56,472 bases of DNA, from contig JACSRE010000442.1 in assembly GCA_014879945.1 (NCBI GenBank), forward strand, positions 1 through 56,472, in the 5' to 3' direction. The position numbers were made by a program, and so were the translations under genes. This stretch comes from Myxococcus sp. GTDB lineage: Bacteria > Myxococcota > Myxococcia > Myxococcales > Myxococcaceae. Position 1 is the first letter of the stretch. Every line of letters starts with the position of its first letter. The notes beneath the pieces were generated by a model that made no database searches, was not told where the DNA came from, and was given only the letters and a program-made list of their open reading frames with translations. Positions 11,049-25,644 of the stretch are shown here, one piece after another.

Positions 11049-12509
11049 TCAGCGCGGAAAGCCGGCGTCGGGCGACACCAGAATCGACAGCGTCTTCACG
11101 TCGAACGGCCCCGGCATGGCGACGGGGAACGGGCCCACCGTCACCTCGACGCGCCTGACGCGCGCGGGGTTGAAGCTGGCCGACTGCTCTCGGGTCCACC
11201 CGGCGGTGGTTCCGCTCAGCGCCAGGTCTTGCCGCACCGAGCCGCCCTGCGAGAGCTGGTTGGTGGCGGGGCTCCACCGCAGGTACTCGGTGTCGAGCGC
11301 GCCGCAGAGGGTGACGACGGGCCCGGGGAAGTGCGCGGTGGTGAAGAGGTTGGTGCCCAGCGTGGAGCGGTCTCGCAGCGCCACCTGCACCACGGCTCGG
11401 CGCGAGAGGTCCCACGTGGTGCCCGGCTCGGCCTCGGCGAACCAGGTGTGGCGCAGCGGCACGCCCGTCGACGTCTCGGCCTGCGCCCCCACCCACGTCG
11501 GGTTGAACCAGCTCTGCGCGTCGGCGGTGGGCAGGCCCTTGAGGCACCGCTGCGGCAACAGGCTGGGCTGTGACGTCGACGGAATGGGCGCGCGGAAGCT
11601 GCCGAACTGCACCCGCGGCGTGGTGAGGAAGCCGGTCGGCCCGCCACACCCGGGCGGGTTGTCGACGACGCCGTCACAGTCATTGTCGAGCCCGTCGCAG
11701 ACCTCGGTCGTCGCGCGCGTGCGGGGAATGCAGACCAGCTCGTTGCGCTGGCTGACGGCGTTGCGGCGGCACTCGGTGCCGCCGGCCTGACACACGCCCA
11801 GGCCGTCGGCGCAGTCGACGGTGGGGCTCCCGGTGACGCCCGGGCTCTCGGCGTCCACCAGCGGCGGCTCGTCGACGACGCCGTTGCAGTTCTCGTCGGT
11901 GTTGTCGCAGCGCTCGGGCGCGCCGGGGAACACCTGGGCCTTCATCACGTCGCAGTCGCCCGCGCGGGCCGCGAAGCCGGGCGGCCGCGCGCAGGCCATC
12001 ATCACGTCGCCCGGCGCGTCGGAGCCGAAGCCGTCTCCGTCGAGGTCGCGGTACCACGCCGTCTGCGGCGTCAGCCCCTCGTCCACCTCACCGTTGCAGT
12101 CGTCGTCGAGCCCGTTGCAGCGCTCGCGCGCGAGCGGGTTGAACGGCAGCCCCGCGTCGGAGTCGTCGCAGTCGAGCTGCACGCGGCCGCCGACGACGGT
12201 CTCGGGCGCCCACGACTCGCGCTGGGGCAAGGCGCAGAACAGCCGCGGTTGGCCGGCGCCGAAGCCGTCGCCATCGAGGTCGCGGTAGAAGCGCTTCGGC
12301 GCGCCCGAGGGGCACACCCCGTCGACGGGCAGGGTGGGGCAGGCCGGCGCGCCTCCGGGGCGGCAGCACACGCCGTCGTCGCACGTCAGGCCGTCGAGGC
12401 AGGTGCCATCGGGCGCGCACGCGTAGGGGCCGCTCAACGGCCACACCGGCAGGCACGCGGCCGCCGCGAGGGCCCCCACCATGACGGCGAGCAGCGCGCG
12501 CGGGCTCAC
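11049..12509 (-). CDS. MopE-motif lipoprotein, second copy
   Basis: The protein has 486 residues from GTG 12509, whose first bases overlap the upstream stop as GTGA. The signal ends in a lipobox 'LAAAAC'. The front half carries cysteine pairs and repeated MopE-type metal-binding motifs: 'RDLDGDGFG' twice, 'CNGLDDDCNGEVDEG', 'CDNTDENCNGVVDE' and 'CDGLDNDCDGVVDN'. The rear half (about 290-486) resembles that of the neighbouring MopE gene, including 'TWDLSRR' versus 'GWDLSAE' and 'RVRRVEV' in both. The motif family was named for a copper-binding protein of methanotrophs, but in myxobacteria it is widespread on surface proteins and may bind calcium or copper. The tandem arrangement points to gene duplication. 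Confidence 0.88.
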   Translation of the reverse strand: MSPRALLAVMVGALAAAACLPVWPLSGPYACAPDGTCLDGLTCDDGVCCRPGGAPACPTLPVDGVCPSGAPKRFYRDLDGDGFGAGQPRLFCALPQRESWAPETVVGGRVQLDCDDSDAGLPFNPLARERCNGLDDDCNGEVDEGLTPQTAWYRDLDGDGFGSDAPGDVMMACARPPGFAARAGDCDVMKAQVFPGAPERCDNTDENCNGVVDEPPLVDAESPGVTGSPTVDCADGLGVCQAGGTECRRNAVSQRNELVCIPRTRATTEVCDGLDNDCDGVVDNPPGCGGPTGFLTTPRVQFGSFRAPIPSTSQPSLLPQRCLKGLPTADAQSWFNPTWVGAQAETSTGVPLRHTWFAEAEPGTTWDLSRRAVVQVALRDRSTLGTNLFTTAHFPGPVVTLCGALDTEYLRWSPATNQLSQGGSVRQDLALSGTTAGWTREQSASFNPARVRRVEVTVGPFPVAMPGPFDVKTLSILVSPDAGFPR

Positions 12510-13924
12510 TTCACGAACCCCGTCGGCGGCTGCATCGAGAAGTCGTAGGTGGCGCCGAGGAAGCGCACCATCACCTCGACGCGCCGCACCCGCCGGGTGT
12601 CGAAGCCGCTGCCCAGGCCCAGCACGAAGCCGCCGTCGGGCTGGGCCGGGTCGAGGTGCAGCAGCCCGCTGAACGACGTCTCGTTCAGCTTGAACGAGGT
12701 GGTGGCCTGCTCCCACCGGTAGCGCACCAGGTCGGAGTCGGCCTCGCCGCAGAGGTACACCACCGGGTGCACCCCGTCTTCGCCTGCGCCGGTGCCCGCG
12801 ATGCCCCACAGCCCGCGCGTGGCGCTGGGGCTGGTGCCGGTGGCCGTCCACGACAGCCGCAGCCGCAGGTTCTCGGCCGACAGGTCCCACCCGGCGTCGC
12901 TGGTCGCCTCGGCCCACCACACCAGCGAGACGTCGCCGTTGCGGGCGCCCGTCAGCCGGCCGTTGACGTTGGTGCCGGCGGCGGTGACGCGGTTCTTCTG
13001 GCAGCGGTCGAACAGGCCGGTGCCGCCGGGCACCATGCCGCCGCCGTAGCGCAGCGTGGGCTGGTTCACGAGCGAGGGCGGGCCTCCACAGCCGGGCTGG
13101 TTGTCGAGCGCGCCGTCGCAGTCGGTGTCGATGCCGTCGCACGTCTCGGCCGAGGGGCCGCGGAGCGCCGTGCACACCGCCATCGCGCCGGTGGGGCAGG
13201 TCAACACGCCGTCGACGCACACGCCCCGGGCGTTGGGCACCAGGCAGGGGAAGCGCACCGGCTCCGAGAGCAGCTGGGTGTCGACGTAGCGGCTGGCCAC
13301 CGTCGAGCCGTCGCAGTCGTCGTCGAGGCCGTTGCAGCGCTCGCCCGCGTCGGGGTGCTGCGAGGGTGAGAAGGGCTGGCAGTCGTTGAGCGCGCCCTGC
13401 GCCCGCACCGTGCCGGGCGGCGCCATGCAGGCCAGCACCCCCCCGTCGAGCTCGGGGTAGCAGTCGCCGTCCTCGTCGCGCAGGTACGCTTCACGCGGCG
13501 AGAGCCCCTCGTCGATGACGCCGTCGCAGTTGTCGTCGACGCCGTTGCACGCCTCGGCCGTCATGGGGTTCACGTCGACGTCGGCGTCGTCACAGTCTTC
13601 CATCGCGCCCGCCGCCGCGAAGCCCTTCGGCCGCGCGCAGCGGATGACGACGTCGCTGGCGTTGCCGTAGCCGTCGCCGTCGCGGTCGCGCTGGTAGGGG
13701 CGGCCCTTGCTCCCGTCGGCGCAGGTGCTGTCGGGCGCGCGCAGGGTGGGGCAGGTCAACACCCCGGGGATGCAGCAGACCGCCGGCCCGTCGAAGGGCT
13801 GGTCGCAGGTGTAGCGCGCGGGGCAGGTGCCGTCGTCGTTGCACGCGTACAGGCGCGCGGGCGCGGTCGGCTCGAAGCAGGCCGTCAGCGACAGCAGGGT
13901 GACGAGGGGCGCCAGGCGGCTCAT
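12506..13924 (-). CDS. MopE-motif lipoprotein, first copy
   Basis: The protein has 472 residues from ATG 13924, overlapping the PEGA-like gene's stop by 4 bases. The lipoprotein signal ends 'LSLTAC' (Cys16). The order is: a cysteine-rich N-terminal module ('YACNDDGTCPARYTCD'), 'DRDGDGYGN', 'CNGVDDNCDGVIDEG', 'RDEDGDCYPE', 'CNGLDDDCDG', 'CDGIDTDCDGALDN', then a roughly 200-residue C-terminal beta-rich domain without cysteine motifs. The Asp-rich loops resemble EF-hand or thrombospondin type 3 calcium loops as much as copper sites, so the ligand is uncertain. It is the middle gene of a three-gene coupled set. A surface or outer-membrane role downstream of the PEGA-like protein and Ser/Thr kinase is plausible (inference). 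Confidence 0.88.
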   Translation of the reverse strand: MSRLAPLVTLLSLTACFEPTAPARLYACNDDGTCPARYTCDQPFDGPAVCCIPGVLTCPTLRAPDSTCADGSKGRPYQRDRDGDGYGNASDVVIRCARPKGFAAAGAMEDCDDADVDVNPMTAEACNGVDDNCDGVIDEGLSPREAYLRDEDGDCYPELDGGVLACMAPPGTVRAQGALNDCQPFSPSQHPDAGERCNGLDDDCDGSTVASRYVDTQLLSEPVRFPCLVPNARGVCVDGVLTCPTGAMAVCTALRGPSAETCDGIDTDCDGALDNQPGCGGPPSLVNQPTLRYGGGMVPGGTGLFDRCQKNRVTAAGTNVNGRLTGARNGDVSLVWWAEATSDAGWDLSAENLRLRLSWTATGTSPSATRGLWGIAGTGAGEDGVHPVVYLCGEADSDLVRYRWEQATTSFKLNETSFSGLLHLDPAQPDGGFVLGLGSGFDTRRVRRVEVMVRFLGATYDFSMQPPTGFVK

Positions 13925-14910: not shown

Positions 14911-17439
14911 TCACTGCGCCTGAATGCGGAACGTGCCCTCTTTGCACCCCACCTGCACCTCGTTGACGAGGTTGGGGGCGGTCGGGTCGAACACGAAGCT
15001 CTGCAGCGCGAACTCGCGGCGCGCGCCGGGGATCAGCGAGCTGAAGGCCATGCGGCGCTGGCCGGGCGCGTAGAGGGTGCAGGCGTTCCAGCTGAACTTC
15101 GAGGTGTTCTGCAGGAAGACCGCCCACACCGGCTGGGTCTGCAGCTTCAGCGTGCCCGTCATCGAGCCGAGCGCCGGGCTCCTGGTGGCCGCCGCGCCCG
15201 TCTGCGCCACCGGCGTGCCCGCGGCGTCGAGCGAGGCGAAGCGCGGGCCCTTCACCGCGTTGGCCTCGGGGTCGAGCAGCACGCGCGCGAGCTTGCCCTG
15301 CACCTCCATCACCGTCGCGGTGCCCAGCTTCTGGCGCTTCTTGTCGGCCTTCGCGGGCCCGACGATGACGAGCTCCTGGCCCACCACCAGGCCCTCAGGC
15401 TTCCCGGCGCGCACGTACAGCTTGTCGCCGTCGGCGAAGAGGTCGACGGCCTTCTTCACCTCGAGGTCGGTGCTGGGCGGGGCGAGCTCCTTCACCTCAC
15501 CGATGGCGACGAAGCGCTCGCCCGAGAACGCGGCCGCCTCGGCGTCGAGGGCCAGCCGCGACATCTTGGGGAACACCTCCATCACCGTGCCGGTGCCCAG
15601 CTTCGTGCGCGCGCCGCCAGGCTGGGGCGCGCTGACGATGACGAGCGTCTGGCCCACCACCAGGCCCTCGGGCGTGCCAGCGCGGGCGTAGGTCTTGTTG
15701 GCGTCGGTGAAGAGCTCCACGGCCTTCTTCACCTCGACCGCCGAAGGGCCCACCGCGACCGGGGCCGCCGTCACCTTCACGTCGCCCAGGGCCGCGAAGC
15801 GGGGGCCCTTCTCCTGCGCCGCGGCCGCGTCGAGGGCCACCCGCGACATCTTCGGGAACACCTCCATCACGGTGCCGGTGCCGACCTGCTGGCGCTTTCC
15901 ATCGGCGCCGGGCGCGCCGACGATGACGAGCGTGCTGCCCACCACCAGCGCGTCACCCTGGCCGGCGCGCACGTACGTCTTGTCGCCGTCGACGAAGAGC
16001 TCGACCGCCTTCTTCGCCTCGACGACGTCACCCGCGGCGGCGCTGGCGGTGTCGACGACGGGCGGCACGATGACGGGCGCCGGCTCCTTCGGCGGCTCGG
16101 GCGGCTGCTCCCCCGTCGGCGGCGTCGGTGTGCCCTTCGCGTCGGCGACGGGCTCCACGGCCTTGAGGGTGGGCGCGACCGGCGGCGGCGCCTCGGCCTT
16201 GTCGGCGCGGCCCTGCGTCAGCAGGTAGCCGCCGGCCAGCAGGCCCAGGGCGGCGACCAGCCCCACGGCGATGAAGAGCGGCGCCTTCGACTTGCCGACG
16301 GCGGCGGCCTCGAGTTGTGCGGTGGACATGGGGGCTCCTTGAGGTGGTTGAGGTGAAGCAGAGACGGGCGTCGCCCGCTCCACGGCGCGGTGGTTGGCGG
16401 TCGGCTTGACGACGGTGGCCTCGACGGCGTCGGCGGGGGCAGGGGAACCCGCAGGCGCCGGCGTGGGCAGGCCCCGAATCGTCGACACCCGCGTCAGCAG
16501 CGCCTGCGTCGACTTGTACTCCGACGCGCAGAACTGCTTCACGAAGTCGCCGATCTGCACCTTCGACGGCATGCCCGACAGCTTGAGCAGCTCATCGAGC
16601 AGGGCGCGCGAGAACTCGTCGGTGCTGGCGTAGCGGCCCTCGGGGCTCGCCGAGAGCGCCTTGAGCACCACCGTCTCGAGCGAGGCCGGCACCTCGGGCC
16701 GCAGCGGCGACAGCGGCTTGAGCGCGGGGTTCGCCATCGCCACCACCATCTCGGTGAGGGTGCCGCGGGTGACGAAGGGGCGGTTGGCGAGCAGCTCCCA
16801 CAACACGATGGCGAGCGCGTACTGGTCGGCGCGGTGGTCGACGTTCTCGCCGCGCGCCTGCTCGGGGGCCATGTAGCCGAGCTTGCCCATCACCGACGGC
16901 GCCGCGGTGGCGTGGCTGCGGGCCTCGGACTTGGCGATGCCGAAGTCGATGACCTTCACCTCGCCCTCGTACGAGACCATCAGGTTCTGCGGGCTGACGT
17001 CGCGGTGCACGATGTTCATCGGCGCGCCGTCGACCGAGGCCTTGCGGTGCGCCGAGCCCAGGCCCTCGGCGGCCTGCTGCACGAGGTAGACGCCGACCGG
17101 CACCGGGAGCGCCTGGTCGGACTCGCGCACGTGCTGGTGCAGCCGCGCGAGGTCGATGCCGGCCACGTACTCGAGCGCGAGGTAGAGCGTGCCGTCTTCG
17201 TCGCCCATGTCGAGCACCTGGGCGATGTTCGAGTGCTGCAGCTGCGTCAGCACCCGGCCCTCGTGCAGGAAGCGCGAGACGAACGACTTGTCCTTCGCGA
17301 TGGCGGGGAGCACCGTCTTGACGATGCAGAGCTTCTCGAAGCCGCCGGTGCCCGTCAGGCGCGCGAGCCACACCGCGCCCATGCCACCTTCGCCGAGCTG
17401 CTCGAGGAGCTCGTATCGTCCCAGCTTCGTTGGCGCCAT
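14911..17439 (-). CDS. Membrane Ser/Thr protein kinase with three extracytoplasmic repeats
   Basis: The protein has 842 residues from ATG 17439. The Hanks-type kinase (about 8-275) is intact: 'GEGGMG' (16-21), Lys41, Glu60, 'HRDVSPQN' (145-152, HRD), 'DFG' (165-167) and 'APE' (191-193). A Pro/Ala linker (about 322-385) leads to one transmembrane helix (387-408) and another Pro-rich linker. Three homologous repeats of about 80 residues follow (472-553, 568-649, 659-737). Each opens 'KKAV(E/D)LF' and contains 'Y.RAG', 'GLVVG' or similar, 'LVIV' and 'G(T)xTVMEV', and each ends 'G.RF'. A final domain (about 760-842) has two cysteines. The repeats are not PASTA or PEGA as I recognise them. The likely role is transmembrane signalling. 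It follows the permease gene by 50 bases. Confidence 0.93.
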   Translation of the reverse strand: MAPTKLGRYELLEQLGEGGMGAVWLARLTGTGGFEKLCIVKTVLPAIAKDKSFVSRFLHEGRVLTQLQHSNIAQVLDMGDEDGTLYLALEYVAGIDLARLHQHVRESDQALPVPVGVYLVQQAAEGLGSAHRKASVDGAPMNIVHRDVSPQNLMVSYEGEVKVIDFGIAKSEARSHATAAPSVMGKLGYMAPEQARGENVDHRADQYALAIVLWELLANRPFVTRGTLTEMVVAMANPALKPLSPLRPEVPASLETVVLKALSASPEGRYASTDEFSRALLDELLKLSGMPSKVQIGDFVKQFCASEYKSTQALLTRVSTIRGLPTPAPAGSPAPADAVEATVVKPTANHRAVERATPVSASPQPPQGAPMSTAQLEAAAVGKSKAPLFIAVGLVAALGLLAGGYLLTQGRADKAEAPPPVAPTLKAVEPVADAKGTPTPPTGEQPPEPPKEPAPVIVPPVVDTASAAAGDVVEAKKAVELFVDGDKTYVRAGQGDALVVGSTLVIVGAPGADGKRQQVGTGTVMEVFPKMSRVALDAAAAQEKGPRFAALGDVKVTAAPVAVGPSAVEVKKAVELFTDANKTYARAGTPEGLVVGQTLVIVSAPQPGGARTKLGTGTVMEVFPKMSRLALDAEAAAFSGERFVAIGEVKELAPPSTDLEVKKAVDLFADGDKLYVRAGKPEGLVVGQELVIVGPAKADKKRQKLGTATVMEVQGKLARVLLDPEANAVKGPRFASLDAAGTPVAQTGAAATRSPALGSMTGTLKLQTQPVWAVFLQNTSKFSWNACTLYAPGQRRMAFSSLIPGARREFALQSFVFDPTAPNLVNEVQVGCKEGTFRIQAQ
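15229..16026 (-). repeat. Three intragenic repeats of about 240 bp in the kinase sensor region
   Basis: The three units encode residues 472-553, 568-649 and 659-737 of the kinase. They share 'KKAVxLFxDxxKxYxRAG', a 'VVG...LVIV' strand and 'GTxTVMEVxxKxxRVxLD' (R-L in one). The first two are most alike. This looks like internal duplication of one small beta-rich domain. Confidence 0.8.
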
Positions 17440-19017: not shown

Positions 19018-20190
19018 ATGCTACGTCACGCGGTCATGCTCCTGTCTGTCCTCGTCGCCGTGCTCACGCAGGCTCCTGCTGCTCCCGCGCCGTCTCAAGA
19101 CGCGCTCGACTTCACCAGGCAGGTGAAGGTGCTCTACCGGGTCGTCGCCTGCGCCGGTGACGAGCCCATCCCCGCGAGCTTCGACGTGAAGGTGGTCGAG
19201 GCGCACTGCAAGGAGCTCAACCGCCGCACCGACCTCTACAAGAAGACGTGGGTCGCCGAGGCGATGCCCTTCATCCAGAACCTCAAGCCCGCGGGGCTGC
19301 CCACCACCGTGGTGTACCCGTTCGGCGGCGGCGACCTCATCTCGGCGCTCACCACCTACCCAGACGCCACCGACATCACCACCATCTCGCTGGAGCACGC
19401 CGGCGACCCGCGCCGCATCGACACCATCACGTCGAAGGAGCTCGCCCAGTCGTTGGCGCTCATTCGGGCCACCTCGTCGGGCCTGCTGGTGGCCAACGAC
19501 TCGAAGACCGAGAACCTGATGAAGGGCCAGCGCGGCGAGCTGCCCGGCCAGCTGTCCTTCTTCCTCATCGGCCTGGCGGTGCACGGCTTCGAGCCGGTCT
19601 CGCTGAAGTACGTGAAGACCAACCCCGACGGCAGCCTGCGGTACCTGAGCGCGGCCGAGCTGCAGGCGACCGAGGAGAAGTCGGCGAAGCTGCTCCACAA
19701 GGCCTGGGTGTCGCCCGACTTCTCAGAGGCCTTCGACAACCTCGAGCTGGTCTTCGTGAAGAAGGGCGAGGACCCGAAGACGAGGGCCCGCGTGCACCGC
19801 CACTTCGCGCAGAACCTGTCGGACACCAACTTCGGCCTCGACGAGGGCATGAAGCGCTACCTCGAGGGCAAGGGCCGCGTCGTCGCCATGACGAAGGCCG
19901 CCAGCTACCTGCTGTGGCGCGACCAGTTCTCGACCATTCGCAACTTCCTCCTGGGCCACATGGAGTTCATGGTGAGCGACTCGACGGGCATTCCGCCGGT
20001 GTTCGCGAAGAAGGCGGGCTTTCACCAGCAGGCCTTCGGCAAGTTCAACGAGTCGTTCCTCGGGGCGAACCCGGCCTACAACGCCGACTTCCGCGAGCTG
20101 TGGAAGACGGCGAAGCCGCTGCCCTTCCGCTACGGCTACCTCGACAAGGGCCTCTCGAAGCACATGCTGGTGACCTCGAAGCAGCCCTGA
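19018..20190 (+). CDS. Secreted protein of uncharacterised family
   Basis: The protein has 390 residues, with a signal peptide from ATG 19018 (MLRHAVMLLSVLVAVLTQAPA); an internal ATG at 19036 is an alternative. The mature part is mixed alpha/beta with no catalytic motif I can name. 'VVYPFGGGDLISALTTYPDA' followed by 'ITTISLEHAGDP' reminds me of an uncharacterised secreted family with 'YPFSGPD...FFP...GLEP', but that is from memory and unverified. Other conspicuous stretches are 'SFFLIGLAVHGFEPV' and 'YLLWRDQFSTIRNFLLGHMEFMVSDS'. The next gene starts one base after its stop and encodes a predicted alpha/beta hydrolase, so the two probably act in one extracytoplasmic process. Confidence 0.8.
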   Translation: MLRHAVMLLSVLVAVLTQAPAAPAPSQDALDFTRQVKVLYRVVACAGDEPIPASFDVKVVEAHCKELNRRTDLYKKTWVAEAMPFIQNLKPAGLPTTVVYPFGGGDLISALTTYPDATDITTISLEHAGDPRRIDTITSKELAQSLALIRATSSGLLVANDSKTENLMKGQRGELPGQLSFFLIGLAVHGFEPVSLKYVKTNPDGSLRYLSAAELQATEEKSAKLLHKAWVSPDFSEAFDNLELVFVKKGEDPKTRARVHRHFAQNLSDTNFGLDEGMKRYLEGKGRVVAMTKAASYLLWRDQFSTIRNFLLGHMEFMVSDSTGIPPVFAKKAGFHQQAFGKFNESFLGANPAYNADFRELWKTAKPLPFRYGYLDKGLSKHMLVTSKQP

Positions 20191-20191
20191 C

Positions 20192-20977
20192 GTGCTCTCG
20201 CTCGCCGTCACCGCGCTGCTGCTCCTGCAGGCGCCCGAGCCGCTCTCGCCCGCGATGGCGTCGGTGCAGGTGACGACCGAGAACGAGCTCGCCGACCAGC
20301 TCAATGAAGACGGCCGGCACGTGCGGTTCGGCACGTCGGGCCAGGGCGCGGTGCACGTGTGGAGGCCGCGCGCGTTCAAGCCGGCCACCGCCGTCACCGT
20401 CATCTACCTGCACGGGTTCTTCACCGACGTCGACCGCGCGGTGCTCGAGCACCAGCTGCTGGCGCAGTTCCGCGACTCGGGCCGCAACGCGCTCTTCATC
20501 GTGCCCGAGGCGCGCAGCGGGCGCGGCGACCCCATCTTCTGGAGCGACGTGAAGTCGTTGCTGGCGATGGTGGAGCGGCGCACCCGCCTCAAGCCTCCGG
20601 AGCGGCTGGTGGTGGTGGGGCACTCGGGCGCCTACAAGACCATCGTGGAGTGGCTCGCGCACGAGCCGCTCGAGCAGGTGATGCTCGTCGACGGCCTCTA
20701 CGGCAACGACGACGAGTTTCGCGACTGGGTGAGCGCGGCTGAAGAGAAGACGCGGCAGTTGGTCCTGGTGGGCTTCGACACCCAGCAGCGCGCCGAGTGG
20801 TTCCTCAAGAAGCACCCCGAGGCGGTGAAGCTCGAGCAGCTGCCCTACCTCTACGACGAGCTGCCGGCGCGGGTGCGCAAGGCGAAGGTGGTGTCGTTTC
20901 AGTCGCGGCGGCTCGACCACATGGGGCTGGTGACGACGGGGCACGTGGTGCCGTGGCTGCTGCACGCGTTTCGCTGA
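20192..20977 (+). CDS. Secreted alpha/beta-hydrolase-like protein
   Basis: The protein has 261 residues from GTG 20192, one base after the upstream stop. A short hydrophobic N-terminus (MLSLAVTALLLLQA) suggests export. The fold is alpha/beta hydrolase: 'VIYLHGFFTD' is the strand 3/oxyanion loop, 'VVVGHSGAYKT' is the nucleophile elbow (G-H-S-G), 'VMLVDGLYG' offers the acid and 'RRLDHMGLV' the likely histidine. The complete triad implies an active esterase, lipase or peptidase; the substrate cannot be read. The tight spacing with the uncharacterised secreted protein indicates co-expression. Alternative in-frame starts exist, but the GTG fits the spacing. Confidence 0.82.
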   Translation: MLSLAVTALLLLQAPEPLSPAMASVQVTTENELADQLNEDGRHVRFGTSGQGAVHVWRPRAFKPATAVTVIYLHGFFTDVDRAVLEHQLLAQFRDSGRNALFIVPEARSGRGDPIFWSDVKSLLAMVERRTRLKPPERLVVVGHSGAYKTIVEWLAHEPLEQVMLVDGLYGNDDEFRDWVSAAEEKTRQLVLVGFDTQQRAEWFLKKHPEAVKLEQLPYLYDELPARVRKAKVVSFQSRRLDHMGLVTTGHVVPWLLHAFR

Positions 20978-20988
20978 GCGCGTTCGTC

Positions 20989-21004
20989 TACCTCAGTTGA
21001 GGTA
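20989..21004. promoter_or_regulatory. 16-bp palindrome upstream of the EGF/fibrinogen gene
   Basis: TACCTCA-GT-TGAGGTA has perfect 7-base arms separated by 2 bases, too close for a stable RNA hairpin loop. That points to a dimeric DNA-binding protein. It sits in the 62-bp gap, ending 23 bases before a TAGCGT -10-like element, near where a -35 would lie. Confidence 0.45.
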
Positions 21005-21027
21005 CGACCAGCGGCGCGCCTGCGCCC

Positions 21028-21033
21028 TAGCGT
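21028..21033 (+). promoter_or_regulatory. Candidate -10 element (TAGCGT)
   Basis: TAGCGT lies 6 bases before ATG 21040, with no SD sequence between. Transcription would begin at or next to the start codon, giving a leaderless mRNA for the EGF/fibrinogen lipoprotein. Confidence 0.35.
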
Positions 21034-21039
21034 TCGGGC

Positions 21040-23205
21040 ATGAACAGCTCGTCCCGGCTCTGCCTGTTGGTCTCCCTCTGGGGGCTCGTCGCCGGGGGCT
21101 GCATCAGAGGCCGGGCGGAGGCCGACGCGGGCGCGCCGGTGGGCGGCGGTGAGGCCGACGGCGGCGGCGCCACAGGGCACGACGCCTGCGCGTCGCCCGT
21201 CAATGGCGGGTGCAGCGAGCACGCCCTCTGCGTGGCGTCGGGCGCCTCGCGGACGTGTACCTGCAAGGGGGGCTTCGCCGGTGATGGGCTGACCTGCGCC
21301 GACGTCGACGAGTGCGCCGCCAACCACGGCGGGTGTCCTCCCGAGGCCACCTGCGTCAACCGCGTCGGCGGCTACGCCTGTGTGTGCCGCGCGGGCTTCG
21401 CCGGTGACGGCGGCGCCTGCGTGGACCTGGACGAGTGCGCGACCGCGCACGGCGGGTGCGCGGCCATGGCCACCTGCTCCAACTTCCCCGGCGGCGCGCG
21501 GTGCGACTGCCTGGCGGGCCATGTTGGAGATGGTGGGGTGTGTGTCGACGTCGACGAGTGCGCGACGGGCAACGGCGGCTGCGCGGCGAGCGCCACCTGC
21601 ACCAACACGCCCGGGGCCTCCTCGTGCGCGTGCGTCGCGGGCTACGCAGGAGACGGGGGCGTGTGCGTGGACGTCGACGAGTGCGCGACGGGCAACGGCG
21701 GCTGCGCGGCGAGCGCCATCTGTACCAACGCGCCCGGCAGCTTCTCCTGCGCCTGCGGCGCGGGCTTCGCCGGTGATGGCGGGGTATGCAGCGACGTCGA
21801 CGAGTGCGCGACGGGCAACGGCGGCTGCTCGCCGAGGGCCACCTGCACCAACGCGCCTGGCGCCTTCTCATGCGCGTGCGTGGCCGGGTACGCAGGCGAT
21901 GGCGGCGTGTGTGCCGACATCAACGAGTGCGCGACGGGCAACGGCGGCTGCGCGGCGAACGCCACCTGCACCAACGCGCCCGGCAGCTTCTCGTGTGCGT
22001 GCGGCGCGGGCTACGCGGGCGACGGCGGCGTGTGCACCGACGTCAACGAGTGCGCGACGGGCAACGGCGGCTGTTCGCCGAGGGCCACCTGTACCAACGC
22101 CCCCGGCAGCTTCTCGTGCGCGTGCGTGGCCGGGTACCAAGGCGACGGCGGGGTGTGCAACGACGTCAACGAGTGCGCGACCGGCAACGGTGGCTGCGCG
22201 GCGAACGCCACCTGCGCCAACGCGCCCGGCAGCTTCTCGTGCGCGTGCGTCGCGGGGTACCAAGGCGATGGTGGGGTGTGCAACGACGTCAACGAGTGCG
22301 CGACGGGCAACGGCGGCTGCGCGGCGAACGCCACCTGCACCAACACGCCCGGCACCTTCTCGTGCGCGTGCGCCGCGGGCTACGCGGGCGACGGCGGCGT
22401 GTGCACCGACGTCAACGAGTGCGCGACCGGCAACGGCGGCTGCTCGCCCTTCGCGACCTGCCAGAACTACACCGGCTCGTTCGGCTGCACGTGCAACACC
22501 GGCTTCGTCGGCGACGGCGGCGCGTGCCTGGCCCCCAACTGCCGCGCGCTTCGCGACGCGGGGATCGCCGTGTCTGGCACGTACACCATCGACCCCGACC
22601 TCGCCGGCCCCCTCGCGCCCCTGCAGGCGTCGTGTGACATGACCCGCCGCGGCGGCGGGTGGACCCGCGTCTACGCCGAGAACGACGTTCCGCAGACCGC
22701 CTACGACGCCGCGAGGACGAACGCCGCGCTCGCGCCCGCGCAGCTGCTGCAGCCGACGGTGCCAGCGGGCACGGTCGCGCACCTCGCGCAGGCCGACGTC
22801 AACGCGCTGGGCTTTCAGCAGGTGTGGGACTCGTTCGGGAACGACACCTACTTCTCGCTCTTCGACCGGGGCGCGAGGACCTTCGACTTCGTCTCGTACT
22901 CCGCCGCCAGCGGTGCGCCGGCCGGGCTCTCGTTCTCGTACCAGTGGTCGTCAGGGCGCATCTACGAGCGCTGGAGCCTGTGCCCGCAGAACGCGCTGTA
23001 CCAGAACATCGGAGGCACCGGCCTGGGCGTCATGGGCGACTTCGGCGTTCGGCCGGGCGGCTCCTACGGTGGTTGCCCCTCGTACGTCGCGCTCTTCCCG
23101 GCCGACGGCGTGCGGGCCGCGTTCCAACACGGCGACTACTACTCCTCGCCCTGCTACGTCGGCCAGGCCTCGTGGCGCACCCCGCGGTCCATCTGGGTGC
23201 GCTGA
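21040..23205 (+). CDS. Surface lipoprotein: eleven EGF-like repeats and a fibrinogen-like domain
   Basis: The protein has 721 residues from ATG 21040. The signal ends 'LVAGGC' (Cys21), then an Ala/Gly/Asp-rich tether (about 22-47). Eleven EGF-like repeats occupy 48-497. Ten are exactly 41 residues with a D(V/I/L)(D/N)EC calcium-binding opening and six cysteines; repeats 4-11 are nearly identical. The C-terminal 220 residues open 'CRALRDAGIAVSGTYTIDPD', and 'CDMTRRGGGWTRV' matches the fibrinogen C-terminal signature. The layout is that of animal extracellular-matrix proteins and suggests a calcium-stiffened rod carrying a glycan- or protein-binding head on the cell surface (inference). It is a single gene, preceded by a palindrome and a -10-like element. 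Confidence 0.92.
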   Translation: MNSSSRLCLLVSLWGLVAGGCIRGRAEADAGAPVGGGEADGGGATGHDACASPVNGGCSEHALCVASGASRTCTCKGGFAGDGLTCADVDECAANHGGCPPEATCVNRVGGYACVCRAGFAGDGGACVDLDECATAHGGCAAMATCSNFPGGARCDCLAGHVGDGGVCVDVDECATGNGGCAASATCTNTPGASSCACVAGYAGDGGVCVDVDECATGNGGCAASAICTNAPGSFSCACGAGFAGDGGVCSDVDECATGNGGCSPRATCTNAPGAFSCACVAGYAGDGGVCADINECATGNGGCAANATCTNAPGSFSCACGAGYAGDGGVCTDVNECATGNGGCSPRATCTNAPGSFSCACVAGYQGDGGVCNDVNECATGNGGCAANATCANAPGSFSCACVAGYQGDGGVCNDVNECATGNGGCAANATCTNTPGTFSCACAAGYAGDGGVCTDVNECATGNGGCSPFATCQNYTGSFGCTCNTGFVGDGGACLAPNCRALRDAGIAVSGTYTIDPDLAGPLAPLQASCDMTRRGGGWTRVYAENDVPQTAYDAARTNAALAPAQLLQPTVPAGTVAHLAQADVNALGFQQVWDSFGNDTYFSLFDRGARTFDFVSYSAASGAPAGLSFSYQWSSGRIYERWSLCPQNALYQNIGGTGLGVMGDFGVRPGGSYGGCPSYVALFPADGVRAAFQHGDYYSSPCYVGQASWRTPRSIWVR
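21301..22530 (+). repeat. Ten tandem 123-bp units encoding calcium-binding EGF repeats
   Basis: The units run in phase with the 41-residue EGF modules. Units from about 21547 onward are highly similar at DNA level, sharing GAGTGCGCGACGGGCAACGG with few changes. This suggests recent expansion or gene conversion and a potential for copy-number variation without frameshift. Confidence 0.85.
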
Positions 23206-23225
23206 GGCAGCCCCGGCCCCGACGC

Positions 23226-23741
23226 TCACGACTCCGGCAGCACCCCCCGCCACGGTGGCGCGCCCACGTCCAAGAGCCGCTCGAACGACACCATGACCAC
23301 CGCCGACATCACGCAGAGGGCGACGCTGAGCGGGTGAGGCGCCGACCCCGCGGCCCACGCGGCGCCAGCGATGATGACGAAGGGCCTGGCGAGCGTGAAC
23401 GGGCCCAGCACCAGCACCGTCGCCAGCACGCCCAGGTCGAAGTGCCCGATGACGTAGAGGCCCAGCGCGCTCAACGTCACCACCGCGTAGACGCCGTAGA
23501 CCTGCACCATGGCGTCGGCGGCCAACAGGAGCGCGTCGAAGCCCTCGGGGCTGAACTCCCACACCAGCAGCGCCGCGCCGGCGAACACCGCCAGCACCAC
23601 CAGCGAGCGCCCCGCGCCGCGCCCAAGTGACGCCAGGTAGTACGAGCGGAGGAAGAGCCTCGGGTTCCTCCCCGCCGCGGCGCGAAAGCCGCACAGCGTG
23701 CCGTCCACCACCACCAGGAGGGCCAGCAGCCAGGGGCTCAC
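23226..23741 (-). CDS. Multi-pass membrane protein, unknown family
   Basis: From GTG 23741 the protein has 171 residues. The first bases overlap the upstream methyltransferase stop as GTGA, so translation is probably coupled. About five hydrophobic segments can be seen: 'WLLALLVVVDGTLCGF', 'SLVVLAVFAGAALLVWEF', two between about 75 and 130, and 'LSVALCVMSAVVMVSF'. A conserved-looking 'DGTLCGFRAAAGRNPRL' loop follows the first helix. No transporter or enzyme motif is recognised. It is the last gene of a minus-strand group with the tail-anchored protein and the methyltransferase. It converges on the EGF/fibrinogen gene, 20 bases away. Confidence 0.75.
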   Translation of the reverse strand: MSPWLLALLVVVDGTLCGFRAAAGRNPRLFLRSYYLASLGRGAGRSLVVLAVFAGAALLVWEFSPEGFDALLLAADAMVQVYGVYAVVTLSALGLYVIGHFDLGVLATVLVLGPFTLARPFVIIAGAAWAAGSAPHPLSVALCVMSAVVMVSFERLLDVGAPPWRGVLPES

Positions 23742-24655
23742 GCGAAGCCGCCCAGGCGTGCCTGCGAGGCGCCCAACCTCGCGCGCAGCGGCGCTTCGAG
23801 GGCGGCGTCGAGCCCGACCACCGTGTTCATCGAGCGCAGCAGGGGCAGCGGCGCCCACTCGCCGTCGTGGAGCGCGTAGCGCAGCGGGCGGCCGCCCGTG
23901 CTCGCCGCGTCGAGCAACACGCTCGCCGGGTGCGCGCGCACCGCCGACAGCACGCCGTCATGTCGGGCCAGCGGCTCGCGCATGCGCGCCTGGTGAAACA
24001 GCCACGAGCCCAGCGGCGCGGCCCACGACGCCTTGATGTCGCAGTGGAGCATCGCCTTCGCGCCGGCCTGCGCCTGCTGCCCGAAGAAGCGCGACAGGGC
24101 GGCGCCGCGGAAGTGGTGCAGCACGCCGGTGGAGATGAAGACGTGCGCGCGCCGCTCGAGCGTGAAGGCGTTGGCGAGGCGGAACTCGCAGCGCAGCCCC
24201 TCCTCCGCCGACAGCCGCCGCGCCAGGCCGATGAGGGCGGGGTTGAAGTCGCAGCCCACCAGCTCCACGTCGTCACCCAGCTGCCCGTGCGCCGCGAGCC
24301 ACCGCACCACGAAGCCCAGCCCGCAGCCGACGTCGACGACGCGCAGCGGGCGCTCCGTCACCTCGGCGCGCAGCACCTCGAGCAGGGGGCGCAGGAGTTG
24401 CTGGAGCCGCACGCCGTTGCGGAACTCCACCGCCAGGCGCTGCAGCTCGGTGTGCGAGCGCACCAGCACGCCGTCGACCGCGGCCTCGTCGAGCACGTCG
24501 GCGCCCGCGATGGCGTCGACGATGCGACGGCCAGCCCGCATGCCGTGCCGCGCGAGCGCCGCGTTCACCCTCGCGCGAGGCACGGGCCGCCGCGCCAGCG
24601 TCAGCGGGTCGACGTCGAGGAGCAGGTCGCTCAGCTCTGGCCAGTCGGCGCGCAC
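23738..24655 (-). CDS. Class I SAM-dependent methyltransferase
   Basis: The protein has 305 residues from GTG 24655. An N-terminal helical region (about 1-100) precedes a Rossmann methyltransferase core: motif I 'LRVVDVGCGLGFV', motif II acidic end 'VELVGCDFNPALIGLARRL' and 'FISTGVLHHF' at the motif IV/V region. The last about 100 residues are Arg/Ala/Leu-rich. The 'STGVLHHFRG' wording resembles small-molecule and lipid methyltransferases more than rRNA ones, but the substrate is unknown. It follows the tail-anchored protein gene by 9 bases and overlaps the membrane protein gene by 4, forming a compact three-gene group. Confidence 0.82.
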   Translation of the reverse strand: MRADWPELSDLLLDVDPLTLARRPVPRARVNAALARHGMRAGRRIVDAIAGADVLDEAAVDGVLVRSHTELQRLAVEFRNGVRLQQLLRPLLEVLRAEVTERPLRVVDVGCGLGFVVRWLAAHGQLGDDVELVGCDFNPALIGLARRLSAEEGLRCEFRLANAFTLERRAHVFISTGVLHHFRGAALSRFFGQQAQAGAKAMLHCDIKASWAAPLGSWLFHQARMREPLARHDGVLSAVRAHPASVLLDAASTGGRPLRYALHDGEWAPLPLLRSMNTVVGLDAALEAPLRARLGASQARLGGFA

Positions 24656-24664
24656 GAGAGCGCG

Positions 24665-25582
24665 TCAGATGGTCAGCAGGAAGACGGCCAGCATCACCGC
24701 CACGAAGACCAGCAGCAGGCCCGCGGTGACGATGAGCTTGTTGAGCGCCTCTTTCTCTTCGGGGCCCTCGGCGCCGTCGCGGAAGAGGTGCAGCGCGTTC
24801 CACAACATGTTGCTGCCGAGCTTGCCTTCGCGCCCGCGCCGCCGCGCCTTCACCTCTTCTTCTTCGTCCTTCTTCTCCTTGATGAGCCGCTGGTGCGCCG
24901 CGCTGACGGCGATGGAGGTGGCGGCGTTGGGGTTCTCCGGGTCGCGCCGCGCGGGCCCCTCGAGCGAGAGCTCCTTCGTCTTCTGGCGCAGCTCGTCGAC
25001 CGACTTCGAGTCCAGCAGCGAGCGCCCGACGGCCAGCCCGTCGCGACCGGTGGTGCGGTCGGTGAGCTCCTTGAAGCCGCCGTCGGCCAGCGCCTTCTCG
25101 AACTGCTTGAGCGCCTTGGCCTGGTCCTCGGGGCGCATCGCGGTGACGGGCGCGTCGGGCAGGTGCGCGCCGGGGTGTGCCAGCTCGACGAAGCGCTCGG
25201 CGTAGGCCGAGAAGAACGCCACCATGCGCTCGGCGTTCTCGTCTTTCGGCAGCCGCGGGTCGATCAGCTGCTGCTGCATCAGCGTCAGGTCGGCGCCGAA
25301 GCGCTGGCCGAGGTTGCGGGGGTCGAGCGACCTCGGGTTGGGCAACAGCGCCTTGACGTCGCGAACCGGGAAGCCGCCGCCGCCCAGGGCCTCGCGCAGC
25401 GAGGTGCCCAGCCCGTCCTTGAAGACGTCGTGCAGCTCCGGCGAGGCCAGCAGCTGCTTCACCTCGGTGACCTCGTGGGGCCGCAGCGCGCCGGCCTGGG
25501 CCGTCTCGAGCAGCGAGGTGGCCGCGACGCGCGCCTGCTGGCCACCCAGCCGCACCGTTCTGAGGAGGTCGTTCACCGCCAT
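24665..25582 (-). CDS. C-tail-anchored protein of unknown function
   Basis: From ATG 25582 the protein has 305 residues. The body is helical and charged, with repeated Leu/Arg/Asp patterns. A strongly acidic/basic patch ('KEKKDEEEEVKARRRGREG') lies before a single C-terminal transmembrane helix ('LIVTAGLLLVFVAVMLAVFLLTI') that ends the protein. This is the topology of a tail-anchored inner-membrane protein with a cytoplasmic body. No motif connects it to a known family. It is the first gene of the group with the methyltransferase and multi-pass protein, and is divergent from the PilZ gene with 75 bases between. Confidence 0.75.
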   Translation of the reverse strand: MAVNDLLRTVRLGGQQARVAATSLLETAQAGALRPHEVTEVKQLLASPELHDVFKDGLGTSLREALGGGGFPVRDVKALLPNPRSLDPRNLGQRFGADLTLMQQQLIDPRLPKDENAERMVAFFSAYAERFVELAHPGAHLPDAPVTAMRPEDQAKALKQFEKALADGGFKELTDRTTGRDGLAVGRSLLDSKSVDELRQKTKELSLEGPARRDPENPNAATSIAVSAAHQRLIKEKKDEEEEVKARRRGREGKLGSNMLWNALHLFRDGAEGPEEKEALNKLIVTAGLLLVFVAVMLAVFLLTI

Positions 25583-25644
25583 GGCGTCACGAGTCTGACG
25601 CAGACCGGGCCAACGACGAAGCGGCATACCGCCGCCGACACAGC

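Follow-up and report, generated by a model that had tools for sequence, protein, structure and literature searches.

The open reading frame at 21040-23205 (plus strand, ATG start) of the window, the whole 56,472-nucleotide stretch of Myxococcus sp. DNA that was analysed, encodes a 721-aa lipoprotein in which an array of EGF modules is joined to a C-terminal GGGWT domain, and this modular surface protein probably works as a stalk-and-head adhesin. The observation made in the first-pass annotation was confirmed: it is real, its location is right and its reading largely so. The novelty lies in the rare combination, as both modules are ordinary for the lineage. The features are as follows.

20989-21004, plus strand: inverted repeat TACCTCA-GT-TGAGGTA between the stop of the upstream hydrolase gene and the gene start, of uncertain membership (sequence).
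21040-21102, plus strand: signal peptide with lipobox LVAGGC, the lipid-anchor Cys being residue 21, with Ile at +2 (sequence and lipoprotein pattern match).
21103-21174, plus strand: low-complexity Ala/Gly/Asp tether behind the anchor Cys, residues 22-45 (sequence).
21175-21300, plus strand: degenerate EGF module 1, in which the calcium motif D-x-[DN]-E is missing, residues 46-87 (11 stretches for Pfam EGF_3 versus 10 for EGF_CA; sequence).
21301-22530, plus strand: EGF modules 2-11, ten head-to-tail 41-aa repeats predicted to bind calcium, residues 88-497 (profiles, motifs, predicted hairpins, and Notch and NELL matches).
22531-23202, plus strand: GGGWT head, most likely fibrinogen-related, residues 498-721, with a CDM-GGGWT lobe, a variable middle and a terminal IWVR strand (NF040941, family profile, AF2 and fold searches).

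The N-terminus of the ORF fits the PS51257-type lipoprotein pattern (VSLWGLVAGGC), with an Arg in the n-region and the +1 Cys present, in agreement with the lipobox on which the protein had been called a lipoprotein. The low-complexity stretch behind Cys21 spans about 24-26 residues.

The identity of the EGF array is beyond doubt from profile and residue patterns. Pfam EGF_3 matched 11 stretches (5.8e-102) and EGF_CA, the profile that the first-pass annotation had proposed as a check, matched 10 (2.6e-80). All ten 41-residue modules carry Cys at positions 5, 12, 18, 27, 29 and 40, which is the EGF spacing, and all ten open with D-x-[DN]-E-C, the consensus of the calcium site; the second motif, C-x-[DN]-x4-[FY]-x-C-x-C, is complete in eight of them, with its Asn present in every one. 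Calcium binding is predicted from these site motifs. Modules 2-11 are separated by one-residue linkers, and Tandem Repeats Finder reported the array with a period of 123, plus an overlapping 369-base register. Ten exact repeats behind a degenerate first one, as originally described, are therefore borne out by both the profiles and the Cys and motif pattern. Structure prediction of the whole protein, the other check proposed for the array, gave each EGF module a hairpin pair, and the model resembled the EGF arrays of NELL2 and Notch, as well as ficolins, in a fold search; its scores speak for the module fold alone, the inter-module placement being unreliable (pTM 0.46).

The annotated C-terminal signature is present in the last 224 residues as CDM-RRGGGWT, and the head exceeded the cut-off of the NCBIfam model NF040941 (GGGWT_bact, fibrinogen-like YCDxxxxGGGW domain proteins) with 50.5 bits against 30 (1.5e-13). 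That model is only 46 residues long and is silent on the stalk and on the other ~175 residues of the head. Pfam Fibrinogen_C (PF00147) scored 16.4-18.4 bits, below its cut-off of 22, and covered the initial ~50 residues only, to which a single-sequence PDB search with the head was again confined (ficolin, 0.01). As the Pfam match is sub-threshold and limited to this part, the identity of the remaining head rests on structure and the family profile. At least 283 head relatives were found in a scan of genome contigs, and the labels of the 80 retained include Myxococcota, Bdellovibrionota, Bacteroidota and Auribacterota. Most of the relatives' heads have a W/L-V-R type strand near the end and a common core extending past the GGGWT lobe. 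A profile built from the heads of 69 relatives matched the tenascin FBG domain in the PDB at 3.1e-15 over ~160 positions, followed by MFAP4, fibrinogen beta and ficolins, with intelectins matching over the N-terminal half. A scan of viral contigs revealed no head relative, tblastn gave no match in plasmid records, and no paper on bacterial GGGWT domains was found in the literature searched.

The AF2 model of the last EGF module plus the head gave pLDDT ~85-95 in the head core, with high confidence over the initial ~110 head residues. Model residues 178-254, equal to protein residues ~634-710, fell below pLDDT 50, as did the putative ligand region in the whole-protein model; this segment corresponds to the calcium- and ligand-binding part (P-subdomain) of animal fibrinogen domains. 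Among the matches listed by Foldseek and VIA-align 2, all were fibrinogen-related domains and no other structural family occurred, ficolins being among them. Tachylectin-5A reached Z 10.5 over 137 residues in VIA-align 2, and this lectin, Ang1, FIBCD1 and tenascin lay at Z ~10 with 137-150 residues aligned within model residues 41-265, a range that is partly of low confidence. The fibrinogen-type fold of the head core is thus a predicted one, and the head is most likely a divergent fibrinogen-related domain, C-terminal strand included. The earlier reading of the head as fibrinogen-like accordingly stood on GGGWT_bact, the family profile and the predicted fold, but not on Pfam Fibrinogen_C. The profile failure that had been named in advance as refuting it occurred only in part.

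Animal proteins with fibrinogen-related domains, including tenascin, ficolin, tachylectin-5A and intelectin, share with the bacterial head the predicted core fold, the C-terminal strand and the CDM-GGGWT lobe, and tenascins likewise combine EGF repeats with a fibrinogen domain at the end. The bacterial protein differs in its sub-threshold Fibrinogen_C score, in the divergence of the ligand and calcium region, in having neither FNIII repeats nor a collagen stalk, and in being lipid-anchored. Wholesale transfer of an animal gene is disfavoured, since the GC content over the gene (72-76%) is similar to that of the neighbourhood and close relatives of both modules exist in bacteria.

Searches of related genomes showed that both parts are common in the lineage and their pairing rare. 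The source genome (7.7 Mb, 448 contigs) holds one GGGWT protein, plus a second EGF-array protein interrupted by a contig end. Matches to the present protein at 1e-20 occurred in 44 of 96 same-family genomes, and the EGF-array proteins inspected there bear RCC1, Laminin_G_3, FG-GAP or Kelch heads, or heads without a Pfam name. Those compared directly (L141-L153) feature 41-aa EGF arrays and a C-terminal globular head, often with a lipoprotein signal and a Cys-rich lead; they carry RCC1, Kelch, FG-GAP, laminin-G or unassigned heads, none of them GGGWT. A GGGWT domain above the cut-off turned up in 75 of the 195 phylum genomes searched, on stalks (named by eye) such as DCGG-type cysteine repeats and linkers of the collagen-like Gly-X-Y, PKD-like and EG-repeat kinds. 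Of a further ~140 GGGWT frames inspected, part of which were truncated, just one protein (bins L076 and L078) had an adjacent EGF array, and a query spanning the EGF-head junction matched only the source genome among 145 genomes of the order at 1e-15, a threshold at which a more diverged EGF-head pairing might be missed. Stalks and heads have thus been recombined as modules among the relatives. With no order-level orthologue of the same architecture, functional support from conservation is absent. The arrangement had been described as striking, a judgement to be moderated, both parts being common separately and a second EGF-GGGWT protein existing.

In that second protein, a GGGWT head scoring 71.8 bits lies at the C-terminus directly behind the EGF array, with mixed EGF types, another head sequence and an N-terminus lying off the contig. 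The two contigs carrying it are near-identical and come from metagenome-assembled genomes labelled Myxococcales (L076) and Spirochaetaceae (L078), one of the bin labels being probably wrong. Two further observations concern the GGGWT domain elsewhere. In L041, L075 and L080 (Bacteriovoracaceae/Bdellovibrio, predatory), two to five tandem GGGWT domains occur per protein, possibly in prey-contact proteins. In G169 and G170, small and incomplete genomes of the same phylum (family f20), there are 15-17 GGGWT matches each, an apparent expansion of heads.

Matrix components are found among animal EGF-fibrinogen proteins, as in the tenascin matches, and many family lipoproteins of like build carry unrelated heads; both would suit a structural or matrix protein whose EGF rod and head chiefly self-associate or link matrix or envelope components, with no specific foreign ligand. 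This reading is judged unlikely, though worth some weight, as a free terminal head that is varied and recombined points more towards recognition, and no self-association motif was identified.

Two genes lie upstream, at 19018-20190 and at 20192-20977, and the second looks by eye like an exported alpha/beta hydrolase (GHSG). They adjoin each other in five genus-mates, and the slot behind them, 20978-25627, is variable. Read by eye, it holds other gene pairs in G002 and G006, a TonB-receptor-like gene in G003 and molybdenum-oxidase-like genes in G005, and it is empty in G001, where the hydrolase is directly followed by the PilZ-like gene (~25.6 kb in the window). None of the genus-mate slot stretches read contained an EGF-GGGWT gene. 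That the gene forms a functional operon with the hydrolase is disfavoured, as both upstream genes stay adjacent in the five genus-mates without the EGF-GGGWT gene. The inverted repeat at 20989-21004 is perfect and the sole exact copy genome-wide, possibly serving as an operator or hairpin; promoter and terminator scans gave no hits, and the flanking genes offered no clue to function. Elsewhere in the window, 15359-16023 contains ~285-bp tandem repeats (2.4 copies) in the C-terminal part of a minus-strand protein-kinase-like gene, a gene on the minus strand at 12506-13924 has Cu-binding motifs of the MopE type (PF11617), and 1442-1588 is a GC-rich 15-base tandem array of 8.7 copies.

Within the EGF array, modules 4-10 share 81-96% DNA identity (mean 86%), against just 70-75% between module 11 and modules 4-10 and 65-73% between modules 2-3 and modules 4-10. 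The near-identity at DNA level that had been noted for repeats 4-11 thus holds for modules 4-10 but not for module 11. By a simple counting estimate, modules 4-10 show dS ~0.35, dN ~0.10 and dN/dS ~0.29. A dS of this size argues against a very recent expansion, and the recent expansion proposed for repeats 4-11 was overstated, given also the diverged module 11. By these values the array centre is homogenised and evolves under purifying selection, with no fresh duplication, and its ends are older.

A new or decaying chimera devoid of selected function, one among the shuffled surface lipoproteins of a variable slot, would fit the changing slot contents of the readable genus-mates, the empty slot of G001 and the absence of the junction from the rest of the 145 order genomes. 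It is considered a poor prospect in view of the intact 2.2 kb reading frame, the dN/dS of modules 4-10 and the retention of every cysteine and D-x-[DN]-E motif in all ten repeats.

For the preferred stalk-and-head adhesin, the lipidated Cys21 would anchor the protein in the outer membrane, with display at its surface, and the ten calcium-binding EGF modules with their one-residue linkers would form a rod stiffened by calcium and held by disulfide bonds. Pairs of cbEGF modules of the fibrillin type, joined by a single linker residue, are stiff, and it is because such pairs behave in this way that stiffness is expected here; the rod would be roughly 30 nm long if its behaviour matches that of fibrillin arrays. 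It would present the fibrinogen-related GGGWT head to a ligand belonging to another cell, to prey or to the matrix, so that cell-cell recognition, prey binding and matrix attachment, the roles suggested originally, are all plausible. The gene probably originated when an EGF stalk of a locally common kind was fused to a GGGWT head of a type widespread in bacteria. More doubtful, although possible, is the fuller proposal that the protein is a functional bacterial counterpart of tenascin-type EGF-fibrinogen proteins, assembled independently of animals by local shuffling of stalk and head modules, with a lectin-like head on a calcium-rigid rod acting in cell-cell or predator-prey recognition. That the protein is no surface adhesin but a ligand or inhibitor, secreted or periplasmic and binding, for example, envelope glycans inside the cell, is very improbable: a lipobox by itself is no proof of surface exposure, but a long rigid rod of ~11 modules is easiest explained as reach past the membrane, and the TraA-like precedents are surface receptors (PMC3325183).

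TraA of Myxococcus xanthus is alike in carrying, at the outer membrane, a lectin-like head on tandem repeats rich in cysteine; the repeats were proposed as a stalk for the head, and calcium enhances stimulation (PMC3325183). It differs in its PA14 head, TIGR04201 repeats and MYXO-CTERM anchor, head and anchor being non-homologous to those of the present protein. The MAT fibres of Bdellovibrio bear interchangeable tips including lectin folds, one of which binds prey glycans (PMC10769870). Both systems are similar in working and belong to different families from the EGF-GGGWT protein.

The protein illustrates a combinatorial surface-protein system, in which a pool of cysteine-rich and EGF stalks and a pool of fibrinogen-like, RCC1, Kelch, FG-GAP and laminin-G heads are recombined gene by gene. 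An animal-matrix-like EGF-fibrinogen arrangement exists in bacteria, and its setting suggests local assembly over the transfer of a ready-made animal gene. The finding also opens to testing the question of whether bacterial GGGWT domains are lectins, as ficolins and intelectins are.
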